64,000 nt of DNA from an uncultured Clostridia bacterium (GTDB taxonomy: Bacteria; Bacillota; Clostridia; Christensenellales; Aristaeellaceae). Below, piece by piece: positions 23,969 to 33,442 of the stretch. The notes beneath the pieces are model-generated. The model saw nothing but the letters and a program-made list of their open reading frames with translations, was not told the DNA's origin and made no database searches. Made by a program: the position numbers and the translations under genes. The stretch spans positions 1 to 64,000 of the forward strand of contig CAMVFE010000003.1 of the NCBI GenBank assembly GCA_947166705.1, given 5' to 3'. Each line of letters begins with the position of its first letter. Within the stretch, counting starts at the first letter, position 1.

Positions 23969-25048
23969 ATGATCAAGGCGAAGAAAAGGATCGGTATCCT
24001 GACCAGCGGCGGCGACTGTCCGGGTCTGAACGCGGCCATTCGCGGCGCGGTCCGCGCTGCATATGAAATGTTCGACGCGGAAATCATCGGGATTCATGAC
24101 GGCTACCGCGGGCTGATTGAGGGGGACTTCTCGCTGATGAGCCGCAGCCAGTTCTCCGGTATCCTGACCCTGGGCGGCACCATTCTGGGAACCAGCCGGA
24201 CCCCCTACCGCAATATGCAGAAAATCGAAGAAGACAATGTGGACAAAGTTGCGGCCATGAAGAAGACCTACAAGAACCTGAAGCTGGACTGCCTGATCAC
24301 CCTGGGCGGCAACGGGACCCACAAAACTGCCAATCTGCTCAGCCAGGAAGGGCTGAATATCATCGGCCTTCCCAAAACCATTGACAACGATATCTACGGT
24401 ACGGATTTCACCTTCGGTTTCCATACGGCGATTGATATCGCGACGGAATGCATTGACCGCCTTCACACAACCGCCGCCAGCCACGGCCGCTGCATCGTGG
24501 TCGAAATCATGGGCAACAAGGCCGGCTGGCTGACGCTGTACTCCGGCGTTGCCGGCGGCGCGGATGTGATCCTGATCCCGGAAATTCCCTACACCATGGA
24601 CAAGGTGGTCGAGATCGTCAGGCGGCGCGCAGACAACAACAAAGGCTTCACCATCCTCGCCGTGGCCGAGGGCGCCATGGAGCTGGAGGAATCCAAGATG
24701 AAGAAGAAGGAGCGGGAAAGCAAACGCGCCGCGGAGCATTTCTCCTCCAGCGCCTATGTGGCCGCGCAGCTTCAGGAGCTGGTCGGGGTGGAAGCCCGCA
24801 GCGTCGTCCCCGGGCACATCCAGCGCGGCGGAACGCCCAGCGCTTATGACCGCGTGCTTTCCACCGAATTCGGCGTGCACGCGGCGGAGCTGATCCGGGA
24901 CGATATCTACGGCGTCACGGTCGCCCTGAAGGGCAACACGATCACCCACAACGCGCTGAAGGACATCGCCGGCATCGCGAAGCCGGTTCCCATGGATGAT
25001 CCCATGATCTCCACCGCCCGCAACATCGGCATCTCCTTCGGAGACTGA
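23969..25048 (+). CDS. pfkA: 6-phosphofructokinase (phosphoryl donor uncertain)
   Basis: This enzyme commits fructose 6-phosphate to glycolysis. The 359-residue product has the PFK substrate and catalytic motifs: LTSGGDCPGLN (residues 11-21), GGTILGTSR, PKTIDND with catalytic Asp139, and MGNKAGWLTL. At the position that selects the donor, GGNGT (113-117) keeps the glycine found in ATP enzymes, whereas Lys136 of PKTIDND is the residue found in pyrophosphate-dependent enzymes. Asn115 replaces the usual metal-contacting Asp. ATP, PPi or both are therefore possible. It is monocistronic, divergent from the hydrogenase operon. Confidence 0.93.
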   Translation: MIKAKKRIGILTSGGDCPGLNAAIRGAVRAAYEMFDAEIIGIHDGYRGLIEGDFSLMSRSQFSGILTLGGTILGTSRTPYRNMQKIEEDNVDKVAAMKKTYKNLKLDCLITLGGNGTHKTANLLSQEGLNIIGLPKTIDNDIYGTDFTFGFHTAIDIATECIDRLHTTAASHGRCIVVEIMGNKAGWLTLYSGVAGGADVILIPEIPYTMDKVVEIVRRRADNNKGFTILAVAEGAMELEESKMKKKERESKRAAEHFSSSAYVAAQLQELVGVEARSVVPGHIQRGGTPSAYDRVLSTEFGVHAAELIRDDIYGVTVALKGNTITHNALKDIAGIAKPVPMDDPMISTARNIGISFGD

Positions 25049-25078
25049 CAGGAGTTTTTTAAAGCGCAACAGGAAACC

Positions 25079-25098
25079 GGGGCGCATTACTGCGCCCC
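25079..25098. terminator. Hairpin between convergent pfk and TIR genes
   Basis: A perfect 8-bp stem GGGGCGCA/TGCGCCCC with loop TTAC overlaps the stop codon of the minus-strand TIR gene and lies 30 bases after the pfk stop. U tracts are poor on both sides (CCTTTCT and GGTTTCC), so termination is only plausible. Confidence 0.4.
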
Positions 25099-26538
25099 GC
25101 CTTTCTGTTCTGCCAGGATTCTTTCAACATCCTCCGCTGCCCTTTTGCTTCCCGCCTCTGCAGCCCTCTGGTACCACTCCAGCGCCAGATTGCCGACTCC
25201 ATATCCGTTTTCAATGCACCAGGCCAGCTGCCGCATTCCGTCCGGGTCTCCTGTTTCCGCAACTTTTCTGTACCATTTATAAGCTTCCTGAGGGTTTTCC
25301 TCCGTGCCCATCGCATTCTGATACATCAGTGCTACATTAAACATACCGATGGCAACCCCTTTATCGGCCAGCACCCGGTTCCAGTGAAATGCCTTCCGAA
25401 GGTCCGCTTCCACGCCTATTCCGTCGCGATAGCACAGCGCGGTGCGAAGAGTACCGAACACATCTCCTGCGTTTGCGGCTTTCAGATACCATTCAAAAGC
25501 CTTCGCCGGATCCTTCTCCACGCCGAATCCGTCCGTATAGCATTCTCCGATATAGGCCATGGCCAAAGCGCTGCCTCTCTCCGCCGCTTTCAGATACCAG
25601 GAAACCGCTTCCTCCCGGTTGAGCTCGGTGCCTTTTCCGGTGTAGTAACATTCCGCAGCCGCAAGCATACATTCCACATTTCCTGCCTCAGCGCTTTTCA
25701 GATACCAGTAAAACGCTTTTTCAAAATCCTGTTCGACACCCCATCCTTCGTCGTAGCAGTCGCCCGCCAGAAGCATCGCCTCATCGTTGCCCTCTTCGGC
25801 GGAAGCCAGAAGAATGCTGACATGCTCCGGTTTCACTGTTTTTTCCAGATCGGCATATCCGGGTCCGGCATTTCTGAACATGGAGACAACCGCCGTTCCG
25901 TAGTTTTTATAAGTAAGCTCTCTGTTTTTTTCTTCCGCCATATAATTGCTGACCGCCAGCGCCGTCACCACGCTCACCACCGCCAGCGCCGCCGCTCCGG
26001 CGGACAGGCCGATCGTCAGCCTCCGTTTCCTGGCCCGGTCCACCAGCCGGTTGAAGCGGATGTCCAGCAGGATGGACGCGACCTTCAGGAAAGCCTTGTT
26101 CTTCCCAATTTCCTGAACATTGACGCCCAGCAGCTCGTCCCCTTCCTTCTCCTTCAGGGCCGGCGGAAAGCATTCCAGTCCGGTGTTTTCGCTGAAGGGT
26201 TCTCCGGAAACGATGAAGGGAATAATCCGGTTCGCGCGTCCCAGGGACATAAAATACTGTATTTCCGCATTCACCCATTTTGAAGCCGCGCTGGCCGGGG
26301 AACAGATCACGATCAGGTACCGGGATCTGTCCAGCTCCCGGTTCAGCGAAGCCTGCAGCTCAGCCCCGGCCAGATCGGTCTGATCCCGAAAGATCCTGAG
26401 CTTCCCGCTCTCCTGTCTTTCGCGGGCAGCGCTCCGGGGAATGGAATACCCCTCCAGCTTTCTCTGAATCCACCGGCCCCATGCCAGGTCCCGGTGGCTG
26501 TAGCTGATAAACGCGTCAAAGGCATATTCCTCACCCAT
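25087..26538 (-). CDS. Membrane-anchored TIR-domain protein with Sel1 repeats
   Basis: The 483-residue product starts at ATG 26538, which overlaps the preceding gene's stop by 8 bases and follows GGAGGG; an ATG at 26580 would add 14 residues. Residues about 5-145 form a TIR domain: box-1 FDAFISYSHRD, FRDQTDL, and SKWVNAEIQYF, with Trp88 and Glu92 in the place of the conserved W..E of bacterial and SARM1-type NAD-cleaving TIR domains. A membrane helix follows (about 175-197), then six Sel1-like repeats (about 240-465) of the form CYxxGxGVExDxxKAFxWYLKAAExG. A cytosolic TIR with an external Sel1 array, or the reverse, are both possible. Last gene of the RyR/TIR module. Confidence 0.88.
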   Translation of the reverse strand: MGEEYAFDAFISYSHRDLAWGRWIQRKLEGYSIPRSAARERQESGKLRIFRDQTDLAGAELQASLNRELDRSRYLIVICSPASAASKWVNAEIQYFMSLGRANRIIPFIVSGEPFSENTGLECFPPALKEKEGDELLGVNVQEIGKNKAFLKVASILLDIRFNRLVDRARKRRLTIGLSAGAAALAVVSVVTALAVSNYMAEEKNRELTYKNYGTAVVSMFRNAGPGYADLEKTVKPEHVSILLASAEEGNDEAMLLAGDCYDEGWGVEQDFEKAFYWYLKSAEAGNVECMLAAAECYYTGKGTELNREEAVSWYLKAAERGSALAMAYIGECYTDGFGVEKDPAKAFEWYLKAANAGDVFGTLRTALCYRDGIGVEADLRKAFHWNRVLADKGVAIGMFNVALMYQNAMGTEENPQEAYKWYRKVAETGDPDGMRQLAWCIENGYGVGNLALEWYQRAAEAGSKRAAEDVERILAEQKGGAQ

Positions 26539-28402
26539 CGGTTTTTCCCTCCGCCAGGCGCTTCTGTGCCGCCAGAACATCTGAAAGCATCAGCACATTG
26601 TTCCGGTCCATCTGCTTGTAATCCACATGTCCGCCGGTGACCTCATTCTCCTTCCGCGACAGCTTGTCCAGCTCCTCCCAGGGGATGAGGCAGGCCTGCA
26701 GGCGCTCCTGCGGATCCTTCCCGATCCGGAAGCCTGGCCCGGCTCCCTGTCTGTATGCCTCCGCCCGCCGGTTCCATACCTCCGGAGGCATCGGCGCGTA
26801 TCCGGACACGTAGTGGAACGCGCACCAGCGAAGGTGCTCCGTAACGGCCAGGTTTTCGAGCGTTTCTCCTTCCGGCGGCCATTCTCCCGCAAGCACTTCC
26901 TCCGCCGTCTTTCCCGCCGCCCTCATCACCGCGGGATAAAAATCCGCGCAGGCGCGGGAGCTCTGCCGGCTGAAGTAATCGCATTTCCGCCATTCCTGAA
27001 TCGCGCTGAGCTCCGTTCCCCTTTCCCTGCAGTAGGTATAATGAACCTGAATGGCCATGGCGTCGATCTCTTCCGGATCCATGCCTTCGCTGTCAAGAAA
27101 GTGGGCGTTCCTGATCTCATGGCGGTTTTGATCCAGCCAGTAAAAGCCCTCCCTGCTGGCATGCATGATCAGCGGCATTTTCTTCTTCCAGGGCAGCCAG
27201 GCCGACAGGTCCTCCGCCATCTCATGGTTCTTTTCATCGCTGCCCGTGCACAGCACAATCATGCTGATCCGGCCGCTGTTCTCCTCCAGAAAGGAATAGA
27301 ATGCGTCTGCGGCGCCGTCGATCCCGTGGAACCGGATATCGTAGGCGGCCATCATGGGATGCTCATGCAGAAAGCCGTTCTGGGCGCCGGGATCAAAGAT
27401 GTCCACCCGGAACCTGCTGCCGCAGAACTGCCCGTTCAGGACCAGCTGGGAAAGAACGGCCCTGCCCAGGCGGCCGAAGCCGAGGATCACCGCGTGAAAA
27501 TCGTCCAGGGCCTGCCCGTGCGCGTCAAATCGGATCAGGCTGCAGGGCGGATGCTCCCGGAGCATCAGCCTGGCCGTCAGTTCATAATCGTCAAAAGCGT
27601 ATACGCTGCCGTAGCCCTCTTCGCCCATCGCCTGCAGCAGGGCGGCTTCATCCCCGTTTCCCCTTGCGAGCAGGCTCGTCTGTTCGGGACGGACGCCGGT
27701 TTCGGTCAGGGACGCCAGCAGCGCCCCGGCATATTCCAGGTTTTTCCGGCTGTCCTCATGCAGCGCTGCAAGCTCTATTTTCCGTTTTCCCGGCCTGATG
27801 CTGAGCTGCCTGAGAAAACGGGCGCTGCCCGCCAGGGCATCCGGTCCCTTTTCAATCACGGCGCCGAAGGAGTGGACGGCGCTTTCAAGGGATGTGTTGT
27901 ATTCCTGGTCCACAAATACCACGGAGCGGCGCTTCTCCCTGGCCATGCGCCGGCCGTAAGCCACGGAGTGGGAGTTGACCCCGTAAATCAGCAGCAGCGT
28001 GCCCCTGCGCAGCAGCGTCACCCGGATGGATCGAAGGAGCTTCTCCCCCAGGGTCGCGATGGCGGCGCTGGCCATCACATAGAACCCCAGGAAATGGCCC
28101 AGCCAGAAGAACGCCATCGCGGCCGGGTACTGAAAGAGCGGAGCGGCCTGAACCGAACCCAGGTCGTTGATGCCTGCAAACATCCGGCACAGGGCCATCA
28201 TCGCCCGGATCAGGGAAGCCGGATTAAAGCCGTAGCACCAGGCGTATCCATGTCCGTAAAAAACCGATCCGATCACCATCGCCGCTATCAGCGCGTACCG
28301 GTTCAGCTGGCGGCGGAATGCGCTGTCCACGGCCAGGTTCAGGATAGCCGCCGCAAAAAGCGCAGCCAGCGTCAATATCATCGCGATGGAGGAAATCATC
28401 AT
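26531..28402 (-). CDS. Membrane protein with Rossmann nucleotide-binding and RyR domains
   Basis: The 623-residue product has several N-terminal hydrophobic segments (at 1-25, 37-57 and about 90-118), with no potassium-filter motif. A Rossmann-like region starts at LLLIYGVNSHSVAYGRRMA, and a second canonical nucleotide loop is AVILGFGRLGRAVLSQL near residue 310. The C-terminal ~90 residues match the ryanodine-receptor-type (RyR) domain: NLAVTEHLRWCAFHYV, then ACLIPWEELDKLS and DYKQMDRNNV. It overlaps the channel gene by 4 bases (ATGA) and the TIR gene by 8. The layout parallels the channel protein next door, so it may be its pore-less partner or nucleotide sensor. I know of no named family for the whole protein. 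Confidence 0.78.
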   Translation of the reverse strand: MMISSIAMILTLAALFAAAILNLAVDSAFRRQLNRYALIAAMVIGSVFYGHGYAWCYGFNPASLIRAMMALCRMFAGINDLGSVQAAPLFQYPAAMAFFWLGHFLGFYVMASAAIATLGEKLLRSIRVTLLRRGTLLLIYGVNSHSVAYGRRMAREKRRSVVFVDQEYNTSLESAVHSFGAVIEKGPDALAGSARFLRQLSIRPGKRKIELAALHEDSRKNLEYAGALLASLTETGVRPEQTSLLARGNGDEAALLQAMGEEGYGSVYAFDDYELTARLMLREHPPCSLIRFDAHGQALDDFHAVILGFGRLGRAVLSQLVLNGQFCGSRFRVDIFDPGAQNGFLHEHPMMAAYDIRFHGIDGAADAFYSFLEENSGRISMIVLCTGSDEKNHEMAEDLSAWLPWKKKMPLIMHASREGFYWLDQNRHEIRNAHFLDSEGMDPEEIDAMAIQVHYTYCRERGTELSAIQEWRKCDYFSRQSSRACADFYPAVMRAAGKTAEEVLAGEWPPEGETLENLAVTEHLRWCAFHYVSGYAPMPPEVWNRRAEAYRQGAGPGFRIGKDPQERLQACLIPWEELDKLSRKENEVTGGHVDYKQMDRNNVLMLSDVLAAQKRLAEGKTDG

Positions 28403-29952
28403 TCCCGCGCTCCTTCTTCCTTCAGCATCCCGATCTGGATCCAGGCGTTATCGTCCTTTTCCCGGTCCTCCGGGGACAGTTCCTCATACGGCGCCAGGCA
28501 GGGATGCGTCCTTTCCGCGCTGCTTCTTTCCGATCCCCGCCGCCAGTTGTACATCAGGTGAAAGCGCATCCAGCGCTCATGCTCGTTCCTGCGGAATGCC
28601 TCCCGGTCTTCCGCCTTTTCCCATCTTTCCGCGGCTTCCTTCAGAATTTCGGGCGTCAGTTCCCTTACATCCCTTTCAGGCAGGAGCAGCCTGACCTTGG
28701 TCATCAGGTGATCTGCGGAAGCCCGGTTGGATGCTTTCAGAAAAGGGGAAAGCTCCTCCCATCGCGGTCCGCCGCCCGTCTCCCGGCAGTAAAGGGTGTG
28801 AAGCATCCGGGCTCTCCGGTCCAGGCCGCCGCGCAGCACGCTGCTCCCGGTAAACACTTCCGCCGGCTTTCCGAAGGCGGTTACGGGCGCCGCCGCGTCC
28901 TGCGCCGCCGCGAACGCCCTTCCGCGGAAGGGATAATACCGGATCAGGCTTTCCGCCACCTCCCGGTTTTTCTCCTCCGATTCCCCGCAGAAGATTACCC
29001 GGTCCGCCAGCGACGGAAGCTCCGGGCTTTCGTTCCACGCCCCGGCATGAAAAACCAGCCGGTCTCCCGCGGATTCCCTGCCGAAAGCCCTGAGCAGTTC
29101 GGGATGAAGACGGCGGTACGCGTCCCAGCTGCCGAACACGTGGTAGGATGCGCTTTGAAAAGGAACCCTGCAGTTGATCAGCAGCGCCTCGCTGAGAAGC
29201 TCGCGGGCCAGTTCCCCGTCCCCCGCGATCAGCACGGTCCTCTCCTCCGGCCGGATCGGCCATTTCTGCCAGTAGGCCCGCGCCGTGCAGGAAGCCGCGC
29301 GGAAGAAGCGGACATCCGGAAGCTCGTCCGTTTCCGTTCCGATGCAACAGATTTCCGCCCGCGTCTTCTGAAGCTTCCTGGCTTCTGCCAGATTATCCGA
29401 AGCGTTCTTCCCCGTCAGAAAGCAGATTTTTCCGCCCTGCCCGCCTGTCCGGGAAAGAATATCCGATATATCTTCCGAAAAGCAGAAGGTGCGCCGGGGA
29501 CGAAAGGGGGCGCCCGCCGGTTTTCTGTCTTCCGATGTCCGGCAGAATACGGCGCATGCCGCGGGATCCGAGCGGATCAGGTCCCTGGCCAGCGTCTCGG
29601 AGGATTCATTCAGTTCTGAAAAGAGATAGCACTTGTTCCGGCGCAGAGCGGACAGGCGGATCGCCGGAACCGTACGGCTGCGCAGAAAAGTGAATGCAGC
29701 GTTGAAAAAAGCGGCCAGAACGCCGAAGCTCGTCAGAACAAAGACCGTTCCGACAATCCGCCCTGCGGGGGATTGTGGAACAAGGTCCCCGTATCCGACG
29801 GTCGTCAGGGTGACGAGCGAGTACCAGATCGCGTCGCCGAAGCTCCGGATGCCCGTCTGGGCTTCTCCCCGCTCCGCGGCCACGAGCAGCGCAAGCAGCG
29901 TAAAATAGGCAGCAAGCCCTGTCAGGATCAGGATCGCACCGCGTCTTTTCAT
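28399..29952 (-). CDS. Two-TM potassium channel fused to nucleotide-binding and RyR domains
   Basis: The 517-residue product has a first membrane helix (about 6-26), a pore helix and selectivity filter TVGYGD (residues 51-56), and a second helix (about 62-92), the plan of a prokaryotic 2-TM potassium channel. The cytosolic part resembles RCK/TrkA-N-type regulatory domains only loosely; TVLIAGDGELARELLSEAL offers a dinucleotide-binding loop. The C-terminus is a clear RyR domain: RRNEHERWMRFHLMYNW, then HPCLAPYEELSPEDREKD. Membrane location is inferred. The gene lies 51 bp after the EAL gene and overlaps the next by 4 bases. The expected role is ligand-gated potassium flux. Confidence 0.82.
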   Translation of the reverse strand: MKRRGAILILTGLAAYFTLLALLVAAERGEAQTGIRSFGDAIWYSLVTLTTVGYGDLVPQSPAGRIVGTVFVLTSFGVLAAFFNAAFTFLRSRTVPAIRLSALRRNKCYLFSELNESSETLARDLIRSDPAACAVFCRTSEDRKPAGAPFRPRRTFCFSEDISDILSRTGGQGGKICFLTGKNASDNLAEARKLQKTRAEICCIGTETDELPDVRFFRAASCTARAYWQKWPIRPEERTVLIAGDGELARELLSEALLINCRVPFQSASYHVFGSWDAYRRLHPELLRAFGRESAGDRLVFHAGAWNESPELPSLADRVIFCGESEEKNREVAESLIRYYPFRGRAFAAAQDAAAPVTAFGKPAEVFTGSSVLRGGLDRRARMLHTLYCRETGGGPRWEELSPFLKASNRASADHLMTKVRLLLPERDVRELTPEILKEAAERWEKAEDREAFRRNEHERWMRFHLMYNWRRGSERSSAERTHPCLAPYEELSPEDREKDDNAWIQIGMLKEEGARE

Positions 29953-30003
29953 CTGCTTTTCTCCCCTCTCTCCGAAAAGGTGCCGTCCCCGGGTTTTCCC
30001 TGT

Positions 30004-32886
30004 TCATTCGGATGTGGCGGCAGAAAAGGTAATGATGCACTGCATGCCCTGTTCCTGTTCATCGATCCGGCTGAAGCGTACATGGCATTTCACGCTCCGG
30101 CCGTTCCCCGGGCGGACGGTATACAGGCCGTTGCAGGCGCTGATATTTTCTTCCGTCTCCATCGCCTGCTGAATCGATCGTCCCATCCGGTCCGTCACGG
30201 AAACCGCGCCGGTTTTAAGTCCTTCGACGAACGCATCCCGGCCGATGCCCAGCGCTTCATCAAGCCCGTAGCAGCCCACCTCCGTGTTCTCCAGGCTCTT
30301 CACGCTCCGCAGGAAAAGAATGCAGTCCGTGGAATACTGCTGCAGCAGCTTCATCCTGTTCCGCAGGGTCATGACCTCCGTAATGTCCACAATCACGGAC
30401 TGCCAGCAAAGCTCCCCGTACTGATCCGTGATCCGGCTCTGGTCCATCACATAGCGGTAGCTCCCGTCCCTGCAGCGGATCCGGTACGGGCTCAGCCGGT
30501 CCCGTTTTCCTTCCGCGATTTCCTGCGATTCAAGCCGTACGCGAGGCAGATCCTCCGGATGAATCATCCGGGCCAGCTGATTGTCGTATCGGTTCCGAAT
30601 GTCCTCGCGGGTGTATCCGAGCATTTTCAGCATGGTCTGGCTGACATAAAGCAGTTCATAGCCTTCCGTGACCCGCGCGCGGTAGTAGCCTCCGGGCAGG
30701 TCCACGCTGATATACTGCAGCTCCGTCATGTCCCTGCAGCTTCCGTAAAAAATCCGGCGGCCGTTCTGTTCATGCAGGTAGTAGACATGGAGCTGCATCC
30801 AGAAAATGGAGCCGTTCGGCTTATAGATCCTGATCATTGTTCCTGCTCCGTTGATCCGGTCCTGCTCCGCCTCCCGCAGCATGTCAAAGAATTTCGGCCG
30901 GTCCTCCGGATGGAAGAACTGCTGAATATGGTATCTTCTTTCTTCCAGCACTTCCGTCTTCAGCCCTACCAGCTCCACAAACTGCTGGTTGAACCGCTCG
31001 ATGTCCACGTCCTCCCCGTTCAGGCTGTAGAAGGCCACGGGGCCCAGGATATTGTTCAGCATCGCGTCGGAATAAATTTCCTCATCCAGGAATTCCCGGG
31101 TATGGATCTGCTGGTTCCGCTGCAGCACGATCCCCTGATAATCCACCTTCTGCGGATTCTGAAGGATTGTCTCGAAGCTTTCCTTCGGCATCGGCTGGTA
31201 GTAATAGAACCCCTGAATATACCGGCATCCCATATCCTTGAGGAAGCGGACCAGCTCCCTGGTTTCCACGCCTTCGACGATAACGGGGGTCGCCAGGGAT
31301 TTGGTCATGCTGATCACTGACTCGAGGATATTGACGCCCCTGCGCTCCTCGCCGATGGAGAAGCGGAGAAACTGGGCGTCCAGCTTGATGGCGTCCAGGG
31401 AGATATTCCGCAGCATGTTCAGGGAAGAATAGCCGCTTCCGAAATCATCCATCAGAACCTGAAAGCCGCGTTTCCTCAGATCTGTGATCATGTCCCGGAC
31501 GGTCCGGGAGTCATCCACGTAGGCTGATTCCGTAATCTCGACCTTCAGCATGCCCGTGGAAAGCCCGTATTCCGCGGTCAGCCCCGAGAGGATCTCGGGA
31601 ACGTTCATGGAGAAAAGGTCCACCCGGCTCACGTTCACTGAAACGGGAACAGGTCTGATGCCGCGGTCTTTCAGCGATTTGAGCCAGCTGCACACCTGTT
31701 CCCAGATCCTGATATCCAGGTTCGTCACGACGCCGTATTTTTCCAGGACGGGAACAAAGGCCATCGGGGGCACGGTCGTCCCGTCCGGCCGTTCCCACCT
31801 GGCCAGGGATTCCGCGCCTACAATTCTCTCGGTGATGACGTTCACCTGAGGCTGAAGGTAGAACTGGATCTCCCCGCGTTCCATGGCGCTGTTGAAATCG
31901 GCGAGCATCTTGAATTCCTCAACATGCCGCTCATGGATCTCCGGATCGTATACCCGGATATGGCGCTGAAGGTCATCCTTGATCTCTTCCGCCGCGAGAG
32001 CAGCCCGATTGAACAGTTCCACGGCGCCAAGGCCGGAGTCGTCCACGATGCAGATTCCCAGAATGGGATAGAAGCCGCGCGTACCGGAGAGGCTTTCAAT
32101 CTCCTGCCGGAGGCAGGTGAAAAGCCTTTCGATCCTTTCCCGGTCGAAGGGAATGCAAAGCCCGTAGTCATCCTGCCCGCGGTAGCAGGAATAGCCCTTC
32201 ACTTCGGCGGCTTCCTCATGCAGGATTTCTCCGAACCGGATCAGAAGCCTGTCCGCCTTTTCCTGCCCGTTCAGCTCCTTGAACAGCCTGTAGTGCTTCA
32301 CATCCACCGCGATCATGCACCAGGGGCCCTGCGAGCGGCTCAGAAGCTCGTCGCACAGGGAGAGGAAGCTGTTCTCGTGCATCATATCCGGCATCAGCCC
32401 GCGGATGCGTTCCTGGGAGACCTTCTCGTCCGTTTTCTTCCGGCCTTCCCGGTTTTCAATATCCTTCACGTCGTACAGGTACAGCAGGATATCCTGCGCT
32501 TCCATCCCGCACGCCGCGCCGCTGATCATCAGATGCCTCATCAGGTGCCAGGCTCCGTCCAGCGCAAGGTAACGGATATCCGCCGTCAGGACGCCCGCCG
32601 GAGACGCCGCTTTCATCCGCTCCGTCATCGTGCTTCCGTCCATCAGCTCCCTGTGCAGCCGCTGGTCATCCGGATGAACCAGATGCACGGAGACGTATTC
32701 CACAAGCCGCTGATAGGAATTGTTCAGCACAGGCGCGAAAAACTTACCGTCCGTATGGTAGCGGGACTCGTAGGTCCCGTCCTCCAGATGGAAAACCATC
32801 AGCTCATCGTACGGAGTAAACCGGAGCTTTTCAGGCAGCTGATTCAGAGGAGAAGAAAAAATGATCTGATCAAGCATGGACGTCAT
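30004..32886 (-). CDS. PAS / degenerate GGDEF / EAL / PAS c-di-GMP phosphodiesterase
   Basis: The 960-residue soluble protein has an N-terminal PAS-like region (about 20-150). A GGDEF domain whose active-site loop reads RGQDDYG (about 165-310) should not make c-di-GMP. A complete EAL domain follows (about 330-575), with GAESLARW in place of EAL, VNVSR, EITES, LMDDFGSGYSSL, KLD and VIVEGVET; these carry the metal and catalytic acids, so phosphodiesterase activity is expected. Two PAS domains (about 600-845) and a short tail follow. It has its own promoter (32974-33002) and heads the channel/RyR/TIR genes in the same orientation, with only 51 bp between. Confidence 0.9.
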   Translation of the reverse strand: MTSMLDQIIFSSPLNQLPEKLRFTPYDELMVFHLEDGTYESRYHTDGKFFAPVLNNSYQRLVEYVSVHLVHPDDQRLHRELMDGSTMTERMKAASPAGVLTADIRYLALDGAWHLMRHLMISGAACGMEAQDILLYLYDVKDIENREGRKKTDEKVSQERIRGLMPDMMHENSFLSLCDELLSRSQGPWCMIAVDVKHYRLFKELNGQEKADRLLIRFGEILHEEAAEVKGYSCYRGQDDYGLCIPFDRERIERLFTCLRQEIESLSGTRGFYPILGICIVDDSGLGAVELFNRAALAAEEIKDDLQRHIRVYDPEIHERHVEEFKMLADFNSAMERGEIQFYLQPQVNVITERIVGAESLARWERPDGTTVPPMAFVPVLEKYGVVTNLDIRIWEQVCSWLKSLKDRGIRPVPVSVNVSRVDLFSMNVPEILSGLTAEYGLSTGMLKVEITESAYVDDSRTVRDMITDLRKRGFQVLMDDFGSGYSSLNMLRNISLDAIKLDAQFLRFSIGEERRGVNILESVISMTKSLATPVIVEGVETRELVRFLKDMGCRYIQGFYYYQPMPKESFETILQNPQKVDYQGIVLQRNQQIHTREFLDEEIYSDAMLNNILGPVAFYSLNGEDVDIERFNQQFVELVGLKTEVLEERRYHIQQFFHPEDRPKFFDMLREAEQDRINGAGTMIRIYKPNGSIFWMQLHVYYLHEQNGRRIFYGSCRDMTELQYISVDLPGGYYRARVTEGYELLYVSQTMLKMLGYTREDIRNRYDNQLARMIHPEDLPRVRLESQEIAEGKRDRLSPYRIRCRDGSYRYVMDQSRITDQYGELCWQSVIVDITEVMTLRNRMKLLQQYSTDCILFLRSVKSLENTEVGCYGLDEALGIGRDAFVEGLKTGAVSVTDRMGRSIQQAMETEENISACNGLYTVRPGNGRSVKCHVRFSRIDEQEQGMQCIITFSAATSE

Positions 32887-32973
32887 TCTTTCCCCTCCTT
32901 CCCTGTATATTTTGTAAAAATGTCTGTCCCGCGCCTGCCGCCGGACTGTTGAGCAATGAGCTTCCGCAGTCTT

Positions 32974-33002
32974 AATATAGCAGACTTTTCCTTTCCCTGC
33001 AA
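32974..33002 (-). promoter_or_regulatory. Promoter of the EAL-channel-RyR-TIR operon
   Basis: Minus strand: -35 TTGCAG (32997-33002), 17-bp spacer, -10 TATATT (32974-32979) extended by TGC. The leader of about 80 bases shows no recognisable c-di-GMP riboswitch core. No other convincing promoter or terminator was seen down to 25087. Confidence 0.72.
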
Positions 33003-33076
33003 CCTTTTCGGGGCGGCTGCCGTGCCGCGGGTCCTTCCCGGGGCGCTTCCTGCCGTTTCAGGGAAAATCATCTTCT

Positions 33077-33442
33077 TTATATCCCCGCGTCTTCCCTGAC
33101 CCATTCATCCCAGGCCTCCGGTTGATATCCCAAGGTCATCCGGTTTCCGTTCCGGACGATCGGAAGCCGCAGAAGCCAGGGGGCCTCCTGGATGGCCGGA
33201 ATCAGCAGGCTCTCCTGCTGATAGTAGCAGGCAGGATGTTCCCTGACTTTCCGGTCCTCCCGGTCCAGCAGCCTCTCCATACCGATCCGCTGCAGCATGA
33301 GCCGGATCTCCCTTTCGCCGGGAGGATGCTTTTTGATATCCATGATCTGTACGGGAATCCGCCGCTCCTTGAAATACCTTTCCGCCTTCTGGGTATCAAA
33401 GTTCTTCTTTCCGCAGTAGATCTGTATATTCGTCTCCCTCAT
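33077..33442 (-). CDS. ArsC/Spx-family thioredoxin-fold protein
   Basis: The 121-residue product fits the ArsC/Spx/YffB fold: NIQIYCGKKNFDTQKAERYF at the N-terminus, IMDIKKHPPGERE, and the C-terminal LRLPIVRNGNRMTLGY with the cis-proline. There is a single N-terminal cysteine (Cys10) without a CxxC partner, as in YffB-like members, so it is probably neither a true arsenate reductase nor a redox-switched Spx. The ATG overlaps the dnaI stop by 4 bases. Its link to replication genes is positional only. Confidence 0.82.
   Translation of the reverse strand: MRETNIQIYCGKKNFDTQKAERYFKERRIPVQIMDIKKHPPGEREIRLMLQRIGMERLLDREDRKVREHPACYYQQESLLIPAIQEAPWLLRLPIVRNGNRMTLGYQPEAWDEWVREDAGI

Follow-up and report, generated by a model that had tools for sequence, protein, structure and literature searches.

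A candidate TIR–RyR module in a gut bacterium: a predicted membrane TIR protein encoded beside two channel-like proteins with RyR-type domains

In a window of 64,000 nucleotides, the whole stretch of DNA analysed here, a gut bacterium carries four consecutive open reading frames on the minus strand (25087-32886), and their domain content raises the question of which of them form one signalling system and what signal might pass between them. The initial annotation had proposed that all four act together, with nucleotides made by a TIR protein gating a RyR-domain potassium channel and an EAL protein tuning a cyclic-dinucleotide input. All four genes are present as described, but only three of them recur as a unit: the channel, a second RyR-type protein (RyR2) and a TIR-TM-Sel1 protein. 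We consider it close to an even chance (probability about 0.48) that the TIR of this module would make an ADP-ribose-type signal that gates the RyR-domain potassium channel, with defence as the likeliest use. The features are as follows.

25078-25099, no strand assigned: terminator-like stem, bidirectional, 9 pairs of which 8 are G-C, where the TIR gene meets a convergent phosphofructokinase gene
25087-26538, minus strand: TIR-TM-Sel1 protein, 483 aa, with Pfam TIR_2, ThsB_TIR and Sel1 over cut-off
25120-25795 (approximate), minus strand: Sel1 repeats, 6 stretches by Pfam Sel1, predicted to lie outside the membrane
25951-26007, minus strand: single TM helix, residues 178-196, from hydropathy and positive-inside count
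26089-26526, minus strand: TIR domain, with the presumed catalytic Glu E92 (SKWVNAE) at 26263-26265
26531-28402, minus strand: RyR2, 623 aa, AlphaFold pLDDT 92.6, hhalign 99.9% with the channel family
26534-27064, minus strand: RyR-like domain of RyR2, residues 447-623, from residue conservation
28399-29952, minus strand: RyR-domain potassium channel, 517 aa, with Pfam Ion_trans_2 and RyR over cut-off
28402-28830, minus strand: RyR domain of the channel, residues 375-517, from alignment with phage Aegeus gp81
29785-29805, minus strand: selectivity filter TTVGYGD, channel residues 50-56, from residue alignment
30004-32886, minus strand: EAL-PAS-PAS protein, 960 aa, upstream of the channel and possibly co-transcribed

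As previously annotated, the last three genes overlap, the channel and RyR2 genes by 4 nt and the RyR2 and TIR genes by 8 nt; the start of the TIR protein is the ATG at 26538, the mechanical open reading frame beginning at 26580. The "clear promoter" assigned to 32974-33002 did not hold up, as its TTGCAG-17-TATATT matches the consensus at 3/6 and 5/6 positions and a promoter scan of 24900-33300 reported 0 promoters (2.8 expected in shuffles). The stem at 25078-25099 spans the TIR stop codon and is weak evidence for a terminator, because such stems are no commoner in the region than in shuffled sequence (6 found, 7.1 expected). In the relative G008, ArsC and phosphofructokinase lie without the intervening block, the whole of which is missing there, and neighbouring genes were of housekeeping type wherever scanned. 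In PADLOC, neither RyR2 nor the channel had a match, and the TIR protein matched ThsB models weakly (best E 6.7e-5).

The annotated TIR domain with a membrane helix was confirmed, with TIR_2 at 55.2 bits (cut-off 28), PF08937 ThsB_TIR at 34 bits (cut-off 21.2) and one helix following the TIR. Of 22 aligned TIRs, 21 retain the presumed catalytic Glu, the exception being the degenerate companion TIR of locus L044, and the motif was also matched in an alignment with the TIR of flax L6 (E 0.017). Around the helix, 6 Lys and Arg residues lie on the TIR side and 3 on the opposite side. Among the TIR proteins of the different loci a TM helix follows the TIR in 64/66, counted with no limit on helix distance, and the TIR side is the more positive in 60 of these 64, for which the predicted topology places the TIR inside and the repeats outside. 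The repeats predicted to face outward differ between loci and comprise Sel1, TPR, LRR/DUF285, beta-propeller and MORN/RHS-like types; the Pfam scan showed no repeat in the TIR proteins of L049 and L067. Among control TIRs without RyR2, the TIR-TM architecture was found in 17/27 when the helix was required within 120 residues of the TIR.

This arrangement resembles Thoeris, in which ThsB is paired with a signal-activated effector, in that the module's TIR matches ThsB_TIR, separate effector-like genes adjoin it and the messenger would likely be of the ADPR type. It differs in its partners, as the Thoeris ThsA effectors named in PMC11204291 are SIR2-SLOG or TM-macro, neither of which occurs among the block's other three genes (EAL, RyR2 and channel), whereas the module's partners are RCK/RyR channel proteins, and a membrane anchor and outside repeats are predicted for its TIR protein. 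By analogy, the layout predicted for the module, with repeats outside (of the LRR/DUF285 kind at some loci), a single TM helix and the TIR inside, also recalls Toll-like receptors; however, the chain order is reversed with the TIR first, signalling is presumed to be enzymatic rather than through an adaptor, and we claim homology for the TIR alone.

Outward repeats of several kinds would also suit an envelope or nutrient sensor that has no phage role, in which the repeats report on the state of the cell surface and TIR and RyR proteins adjust potassium, the TIR perhaps serving as a scaffold. The housekeeping-type neighbours are in line with this explanation, and no RyR2 relative was found in IMG/VR viral contigs. 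On the other hand, patchy distribution and changing receptor domains are typical of conflict systems, and the almost constant retention of the presumed catalytic Glu also speaks against it. We regard a purely non-immune sensor as unlikely, although it survives best of the alternatives.

As the initial annotation had stated, the channel combines a TVGYGD pore with a RyR domain in one protein (PF02026, 34.3 bits, cut-off 27.4). A 2-TM pore is followed by two RCK-like Rossmann lobes and the C-terminal RyR domain, so that the protein has every element of an RCK potassium channel, from the TxGYGD filter in its 2-TM pore to the RCK lobes. The best Foldseek match of the AlphaFold model (pLDDT 93.3) was GsuK (4gx0, E 1.4e-6). 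In an alignment of the window's channel with 63 of 66 channel homologues, T48, G53, G55 and D56 are invariant in 64/64 rows. The pore with its potassium filter and the two RCK-like lobes are common to GsuK, other RCK potassium channels and the plant CASTOR/DMI1 gating rings, whereas the appended RyR domain, the adjacent paralogue with an altered pore loop and the TIR partner are the module's own. In the RyR domain, H458, W461, H483 and D500 correspond with identical spacing to the four ligand-contact residues H75, W78, H100 and D117 of the phage protein RyDEP, which the aligned Aegeus gp81 carries; the channel residues are conserved in 64/64, 64/64, 64/64 and 63/64 rows, respectively. While RyDEP and related RyR R12-domain proteins (PF02026) share these residues, RyDEP is a stand-alone anti-defence protein of phages and the module carries the domain as part of a bacterial channel.

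RyR2 was described earlier as a second membrane/Rossmann/RyR protein. Its membrane part and RCK-like lobes stand; the RyR assignment gains no backing from Pfam, where no family including PF02026 matched, and is instead based on the remote hhalign match to the channel family and on conserved residues. The protein has an extra TM helix, pore-like helices without a potassium filter, two RCK-like lobes and the RyR-like domain. Among 70 aligned rows (the window's copy and 69 of 80 homologues) none has a TVGYG-like or TxGYGD filter, the pore-loop consensus being MFxGxN[D/E]. H523 and W526 are conserved in 70/70 and D599 in 69/70 rows, and the position of the phosphate-contact His, 569, is His in 63 and Gln in 7, the latter including the window's copy, which thus keeps three of the four RyDEP contact residues. 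In structure comparison, GsuK (entries with ADP and NAD) and the CASTOR/DMI1 gating rings emerged as the likenesses of the two RyR proteins, although the VIA comparison hardly covers the RyR part, which may have another fold. A profile search of the PDB with RyR2 gave no meaningful match.

Among the papers listed in the literature searches, outside which lies the TIR-system catalogue of Yirmiya et al. (2025), one has RyR domains and TIR signalling as its subject (PMC13232231, a 2026 preprint), while terms of both kinds also occur in the entries for PMC8295901 and PMC13288928, and we claim no priority for the module. In that study, phage RyR domains bind or cleave 2'/3'cADPR, and such domains need not be switches but may serve as hydrolases or sponges (PMC13232231). 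As with phage RyDEP, one or both RyR domains of the module might end the signal by hydrolysing cyclic ADP-ribose made by the TIR, thereby resetting the system or coupling clearance to gating. The His/Asp pair that forms the glycosidase dyad of RyDEP (H75/D117; PMC13232231) is kept in both the channel (H458/D500) and RyR2 (H523/D599) at the frequencies given above. However, eight further homologues yielded cleavage in 0/8 and binding in 6/8 (PMC13232231), a domain joined to a pore and RCK lobes is suggestive of an allosteric reader, and the window's RyR2 has Q569 in place of the phosphate-contact His. Signal removal as the principal role appears improbable, somewhat more so than the sensor.

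The three RyR and TIR genes are linked beyond chance. RyR2 matches were found in 10 of 61 relatives (2 of 398 genomes in a phylum sample), the window's own genome included in both. A TIR gene lies beside RyR2 in nine of these ten, where 0.05-0.17 (about 0.1) would be expected, a rough figure as the genomes are related. In the own genome (71% complete) the single TIR_2 match is the module's TIR. At 80 RyR2 loci, the channel was present at 66 (65 within 250 bp of RyR2), TIR at 49 and both at 42; at the 35 whose flanks each reach 7.5 kb or more, TIR was present at 25, the channel at 27 and both at 23. TIR was not found at 31/80 loci, many of them short-flanked, including 10 of the 35 long-flanked ones, and neither partner was found at 7/80, 6 of them long-flanked. 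L058 and L064 were counted as having no TIR because the TIR profile found none, despite their clustering with DUF285-type TIR proteins. Seven loci (L030, L035, L036, L053, L067, L084 and L085) have RyR2 and TIR and no channel in the flanking DNA covered, and therefore the module may be able to do without the potassium channel, or its main partner may be RyR2; no full-length RyR channel was found elsewhere in the draft genomes G006 (that of L030) and G013 (85% and 77% complete). For PF02026 outside this family, 9 of 16 relatives with a match have no TIR_2 on that contig.

Another partner hidden at the TIR-less loci was considered and rejected, as 10 neighbour proteins scanned from 9 of the 31 revealed no recurrent one. 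The neighbours there were transporters, metabolic enzymes, a histidine kinase and a peptidyl-prolyl isomerase, with an ABC transporter shared by L039 and L042 and an alanine symporter by L069 and L086. Phage or prophage cargo was likewise rejected: RyR2 lacks an IMG/VR relative, and the channel-profile matches listed (80 of 219) all fall within channel residues 1-158, a stretch that covers the pore and reaches just into the first lobe.

The RyR2 tree, with 40 labelled rows, requires at least 10 changes of TIR class, where seven classes need no fewer than 6 and shuffled labels gave a mean of 23; changes were counted over TIR classes alone, excluding the "no TIR" state. With Pfam-checked labels only, there were 6 changes among 18 rows (least 4). 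The Pfam scan covered the window's own TIR protein and 20 from other loci, one being the L044 companion, and the remaining labels were taken from length, companion gene and clade. For the most part the TIR classes track the RyR2 tree, and therefore much of the linkage is inherited. This inheritance and the TIR-less loci would agree with a TIR gene merely passed on as a passive neighbour of the RyR genes, which is nevertheless very improbable given the 9/10 linkage, the gene order and strand that vary among loci, and some replacement of TIR class, as in L025, which sits among Sel1-type loci and whose RyR2 is 65% identical to the window's, while its TIR is 24% identical and carries DUF285/LRR repeats.

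The EAL gene looks like an incidental neighbour. Its EAL domain is complete, as annotated (194.3 bits, cut-off 31.3), however, its orthologues are unlinked to RyR2 in 9/9 other genomes where one was found (4 have the two on different contigs and 5 have no match to RyR2), and a relative, 28% identical and about 10 kb away, occurs at 1/89 RyR2 loci; we have therefore rejected it as a system member. That the EAL protein tunes a cyclic-dinucleotide input of the module is hardly credible on these counts, despite its position 51 nt upstream of the channel on the same strand and the loss of the entire four-gene block in G008.

The proposed gating of a RyR channel by a TIR-made nucleotide thus fits the linkage, the kept residues and PMC13232231, and the EAL/c-di-GMP part of that proposal finds no support. 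The TIR-TM-Sel1 protein would be a membrane receptor with its repeats outside and its TIR inside. Upon a trigger, the TIR would convert NAD+ to an ADP-ribose-type messenger, plausibly 2'- or 3'-cADPR, an identity suggested by the conserved Glu and the RyR proteins encoded beside it. This compound may bind the RyR domains, as related phage domains do, and since these are located at the ends of the RCK gating lobes, binding would change the gate of the potassium channel of GsuK type. Its paralogue RyR2, whose pore loop is not that of a potassium channel, may be a further subunit, form a channel with a different selectivity or clear the signal as an enzyme. Potassium loss and depolarisation would follow, hence growth arrest, with phage defence as the likeliest use. 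The more specific form, which joins two eukaryote-like modules and in which a cyclic ADP-ribose isomer from the Toll-like arrangement directly gates a potassium channel formed together with the filter-less paralogue, is possible but rather doubtful.

Animal ryanodine receptors are a presumed target of cyclic ADP-ribose, and whether it acts on them directly is a long-standing question. In bacteria, a TIR protein and RyR-domain channels adjoin, with the contact residues of a 2'/3'cADPR-binding domain, and the module is small enough to be rebuilt in the laboratory, so direct gating by a TIR product is testable. An ion-channel output would extend TIR immune signalling. If true, this Toll-like/RyR pathway would give cADPR-ryanodine-receptor signalling a counterpart in bacteria, which might even be its forerunner.

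The minus-strand block lies in the window, bases 1-64000 of contig 3 of a draft genome of 2.18 Mb (73 contigs, 71% complete), between a phosphofructokinase gene and an ArsC-DnaI-DnaB2 run:

23969-25048, plus strand, phosphofructokinase gene, flanking the block on one side
25087-26538, minus strand, TIR protein with transmembrane helix and Sel1 repeats
26531-28402, minus strand, RyR2, an RCK/RyR membrane protein without K+ filter
28399-29952, minus strand, GsuK-like RCK K+ channel with C-terminal RyR domain
30004-32886, minus strand, EAL-PAS-PAS protein

The sequence bears out the overlaps of channel and RyR2 (4 nt) and of RyR2 and TIR gene (8 nt), the ATG at 26538 being the best reading of the TIR start; 51 nt separate the end of the EAL gene from the channel start. 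The promoter called clear in the initial annotation is weak: it matches the consensus at 3/6 and 5/6, and the promoter scan lists none. Third-position GC of the TIR gene (25087-26538) is 0.65, compared to 0.72-0.87 in 14 other measured window genes, which may reflect recent acquisition.

Counting the own genome, 10 of 61 relatives gave an RyR2 match, and a TIR gene adjoins RyR2 in nine of these (G000, G003, G006, G009, G013, G018, G045, G047 and G055), against a chance expectation of 0.05-0.17 genomes, which is rough as the genomes are related. G047 and G055 match RyR2 remotely, at 24-26% identity; in G047, from a distant family, a short RyR frame of 112 aa separates the TIR match from the RyR2-like one, all three standing in a row (C33:23181-25766). 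In the tenth relative, G031, the RyR2 match is partial and no TIR_2 match was found. Nine of 16 relatives matching PF02026 (Pfam RyR) had no TIR_2 match on the same contig.

For a wider set, 84,980 species genomes were scanned with RyR2 and the best 80 of 156 relatives were used; this set overlaps the 61 relatives (the same genomes are, e.g., L025/G018, L027/G003 and L030/G006). Within these best 80 loci, the channel was found in 66 (65 within 250 bp), a TIR gene in 49, both in 42 and neither in seven, and the 35 loci flanked by 7.5 kb or more on each side yielded 27, 25, 23 and six, respectively. The retrieved DNA of 31 of the 80 loci showed no TIR gene; many of these are short-flanked, but ten of the 35 long-flanked loci are among them. 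Gene order, spacing and strand differ between RyR2 loci. As no channel was found in the retrieved DNA of seven loci with RyR2 and TIR (L030, L035, L036, L053, L067, L084 and L085), RyR2 rather than the channel may be the indispensable partner. Of the four-gene operon proposed initially, the RyR/RyR/TIR part recurs, but the EAL gene is judged not to belong to it: its orthologues (E up to 1e-100) in nine other relatives are never beside RyR2 (on another contig in four, no RyR2 match in five), and a distant EAL relative occurs in 1 of 89 loci (L013-L101).

Of 398 genomes sampled from the phylum, two carried RyR2, the own genome being one of them. DnaB2-DnaI-ArsC is kept in the DnaI regions of all six relatives compared (L103-L108), where blastp (E up to 1e-10) gave no match to the window's RyR or TIR proteins. 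G008 has a convergent phosphofructokinase gene 46 nt past ArsC, so that the four-gene block is absent at exactly that site; in the other five regions this gene is not next to ArsC, the G026 contig ending shortly past ArsC. A large protein (667-1070 aa) lies near the RyR/TIR genes in 15 of the 80 loci, including L043-L046, L048, L050-L052, L060, L075, L079 and L080, and its start is signal-peptide-like in one example. Another set of proteins, resembling one another, lies near RyR2 in L027, L069, L086 and L088, those of L069 and L086, the two scanned, being sodium:alanine symporters by Pfam.

A hydrophobic helix follows the TIR domain in 64 of the 66 proteins examined (the window's and the companion TIRs among them), and lysine and arginine are richer on the TIR side in 60 of the 64 (three ties, one opposite). 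The TIR domain should therefore face inside and the repeats outside, because NAD+ is inside. In 20 control TIR regions of relatives without RyR2 match, 17 of 27 TIR proteins carry the helix, 16 of them with more positive charge towards the TIR and one with a tie; TIR-TM proteins are therefore a wider class, and RyR2 loci contain almost this class alone. Of the 22 TIRs aligned, 21 retain the Glu that we take to be the catalytic residue of TIR NADases (SKW...E motif); the window's aligns with that of flax L6, at a weak E-value of 0.017.

The Pfam-scanned TIR proteins bore repeats of several kinds: Sel1, DUF285/LRR, beta-propeller, MORN/RHS-like, or TPR, the last alongside a small, degenerate companion TIR. 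On an RyR2 tree (quick build, SH-aLRT support only), at least 10 class changes occurred among 40 labelled rows, where seven classes need at least six and shuffled labels 19-26; the 18 Pfam-checked rows gave six, where five classes need four. For the most part, TIR classes are therefore distributed in line with the RyR2 tree, but some have been replaced. L025, inside the Sel1 clade, shows this most clearly: its RyR2 is 65% identical to the window's but its TIR only 24%, with DUF285 repeats and the gene between channel and RyR2. That the TIR was exchanged while its neighbourhood stayed in place speaks for joint TIR/RyR function, although less strongly than first thought. Paired TIR genes, encoding a small TIR-like protein (270-330 aa) and then a TIR-TM protein of about 680 aa, occur in 16 loci (L043-L046, L048, L050-L052, L060, L062, L075, L079, L080, L082, L097 and L100). 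The L044 TIR-TM protein, the only one Pfam-scanned, has TPR repeats; its companion, the one aligned, lacks the catalytic Glu and is possibly a regulatory pseudo-enzyme.

According to the available text of PMC13232231, the phage stand-alone RyR-domain protein RyDEP binds and cleaves 2'/3'cADPR via H75, W78, H100 and D117, and six of eight further homologues bind while none cleaves. H458, W461, H483 and D500 of the channel have RyDEP's offsets (0, 3, 25 and 42) and are conserved in 64, 64, 64 and 63 of 64 rows. In RyR2, H523 and W526 are kept in 70 of 70 rows and D599 in 69; position 569 is His in 63 and Gln in seven, the window among the latter. Mycobacterium phage Aegeus gp81 (L102:2306-2716, annotated hypothetical) is RyDEP-like with the four ligand letters at RyDEP positions, between genes annotated phosphoribosyl pyrophosphate transferase and nicotinate ribosyltransferase, of the NAD-rebuilding kind. 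A stretch similar to the channel's last 83 residues, its RyR domain, was found in 235 phage records (E up to 1), the top one from a human faecal sample; such stretches could possibly be decoys for RyR channels.

The module's domain content, linkage, conservation and patchiness are observed directly, and we consider joint function of the TIR and RyR proteins probable (about 0.85). The TIR protein would produce an ADPR-type messenger, the RyR domains would read it, the RCK lobes would relay its binding to the pore, and K+ flux would arrest the cell. Counting against this in its simplest version are the loci with RyR2 and TIR but no channel, those with no TIR gene in the retrieved DNA, and the relatives whose PF02026 match has no TIR_2 match on its contig. 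That the messenger gates the channel is about an even chance, and the same holds for a defence role. In the literature searched, PMC13232231 was the sole paper on RyR domains and TIR signalling, and a further TIR-system catalogue might already include the module; as available, that paper covers phage proteins, and the words potassium and transmembrane are absent from its main text. The macro-Thoeris paper (PMC11204291), in its available text, names SIR2-SLOG and TM-macro effectors. As neither of these ThsA types is among the block's genes, the module is filed outside Thoeris, as a putative new variant of TIR-based signalling.
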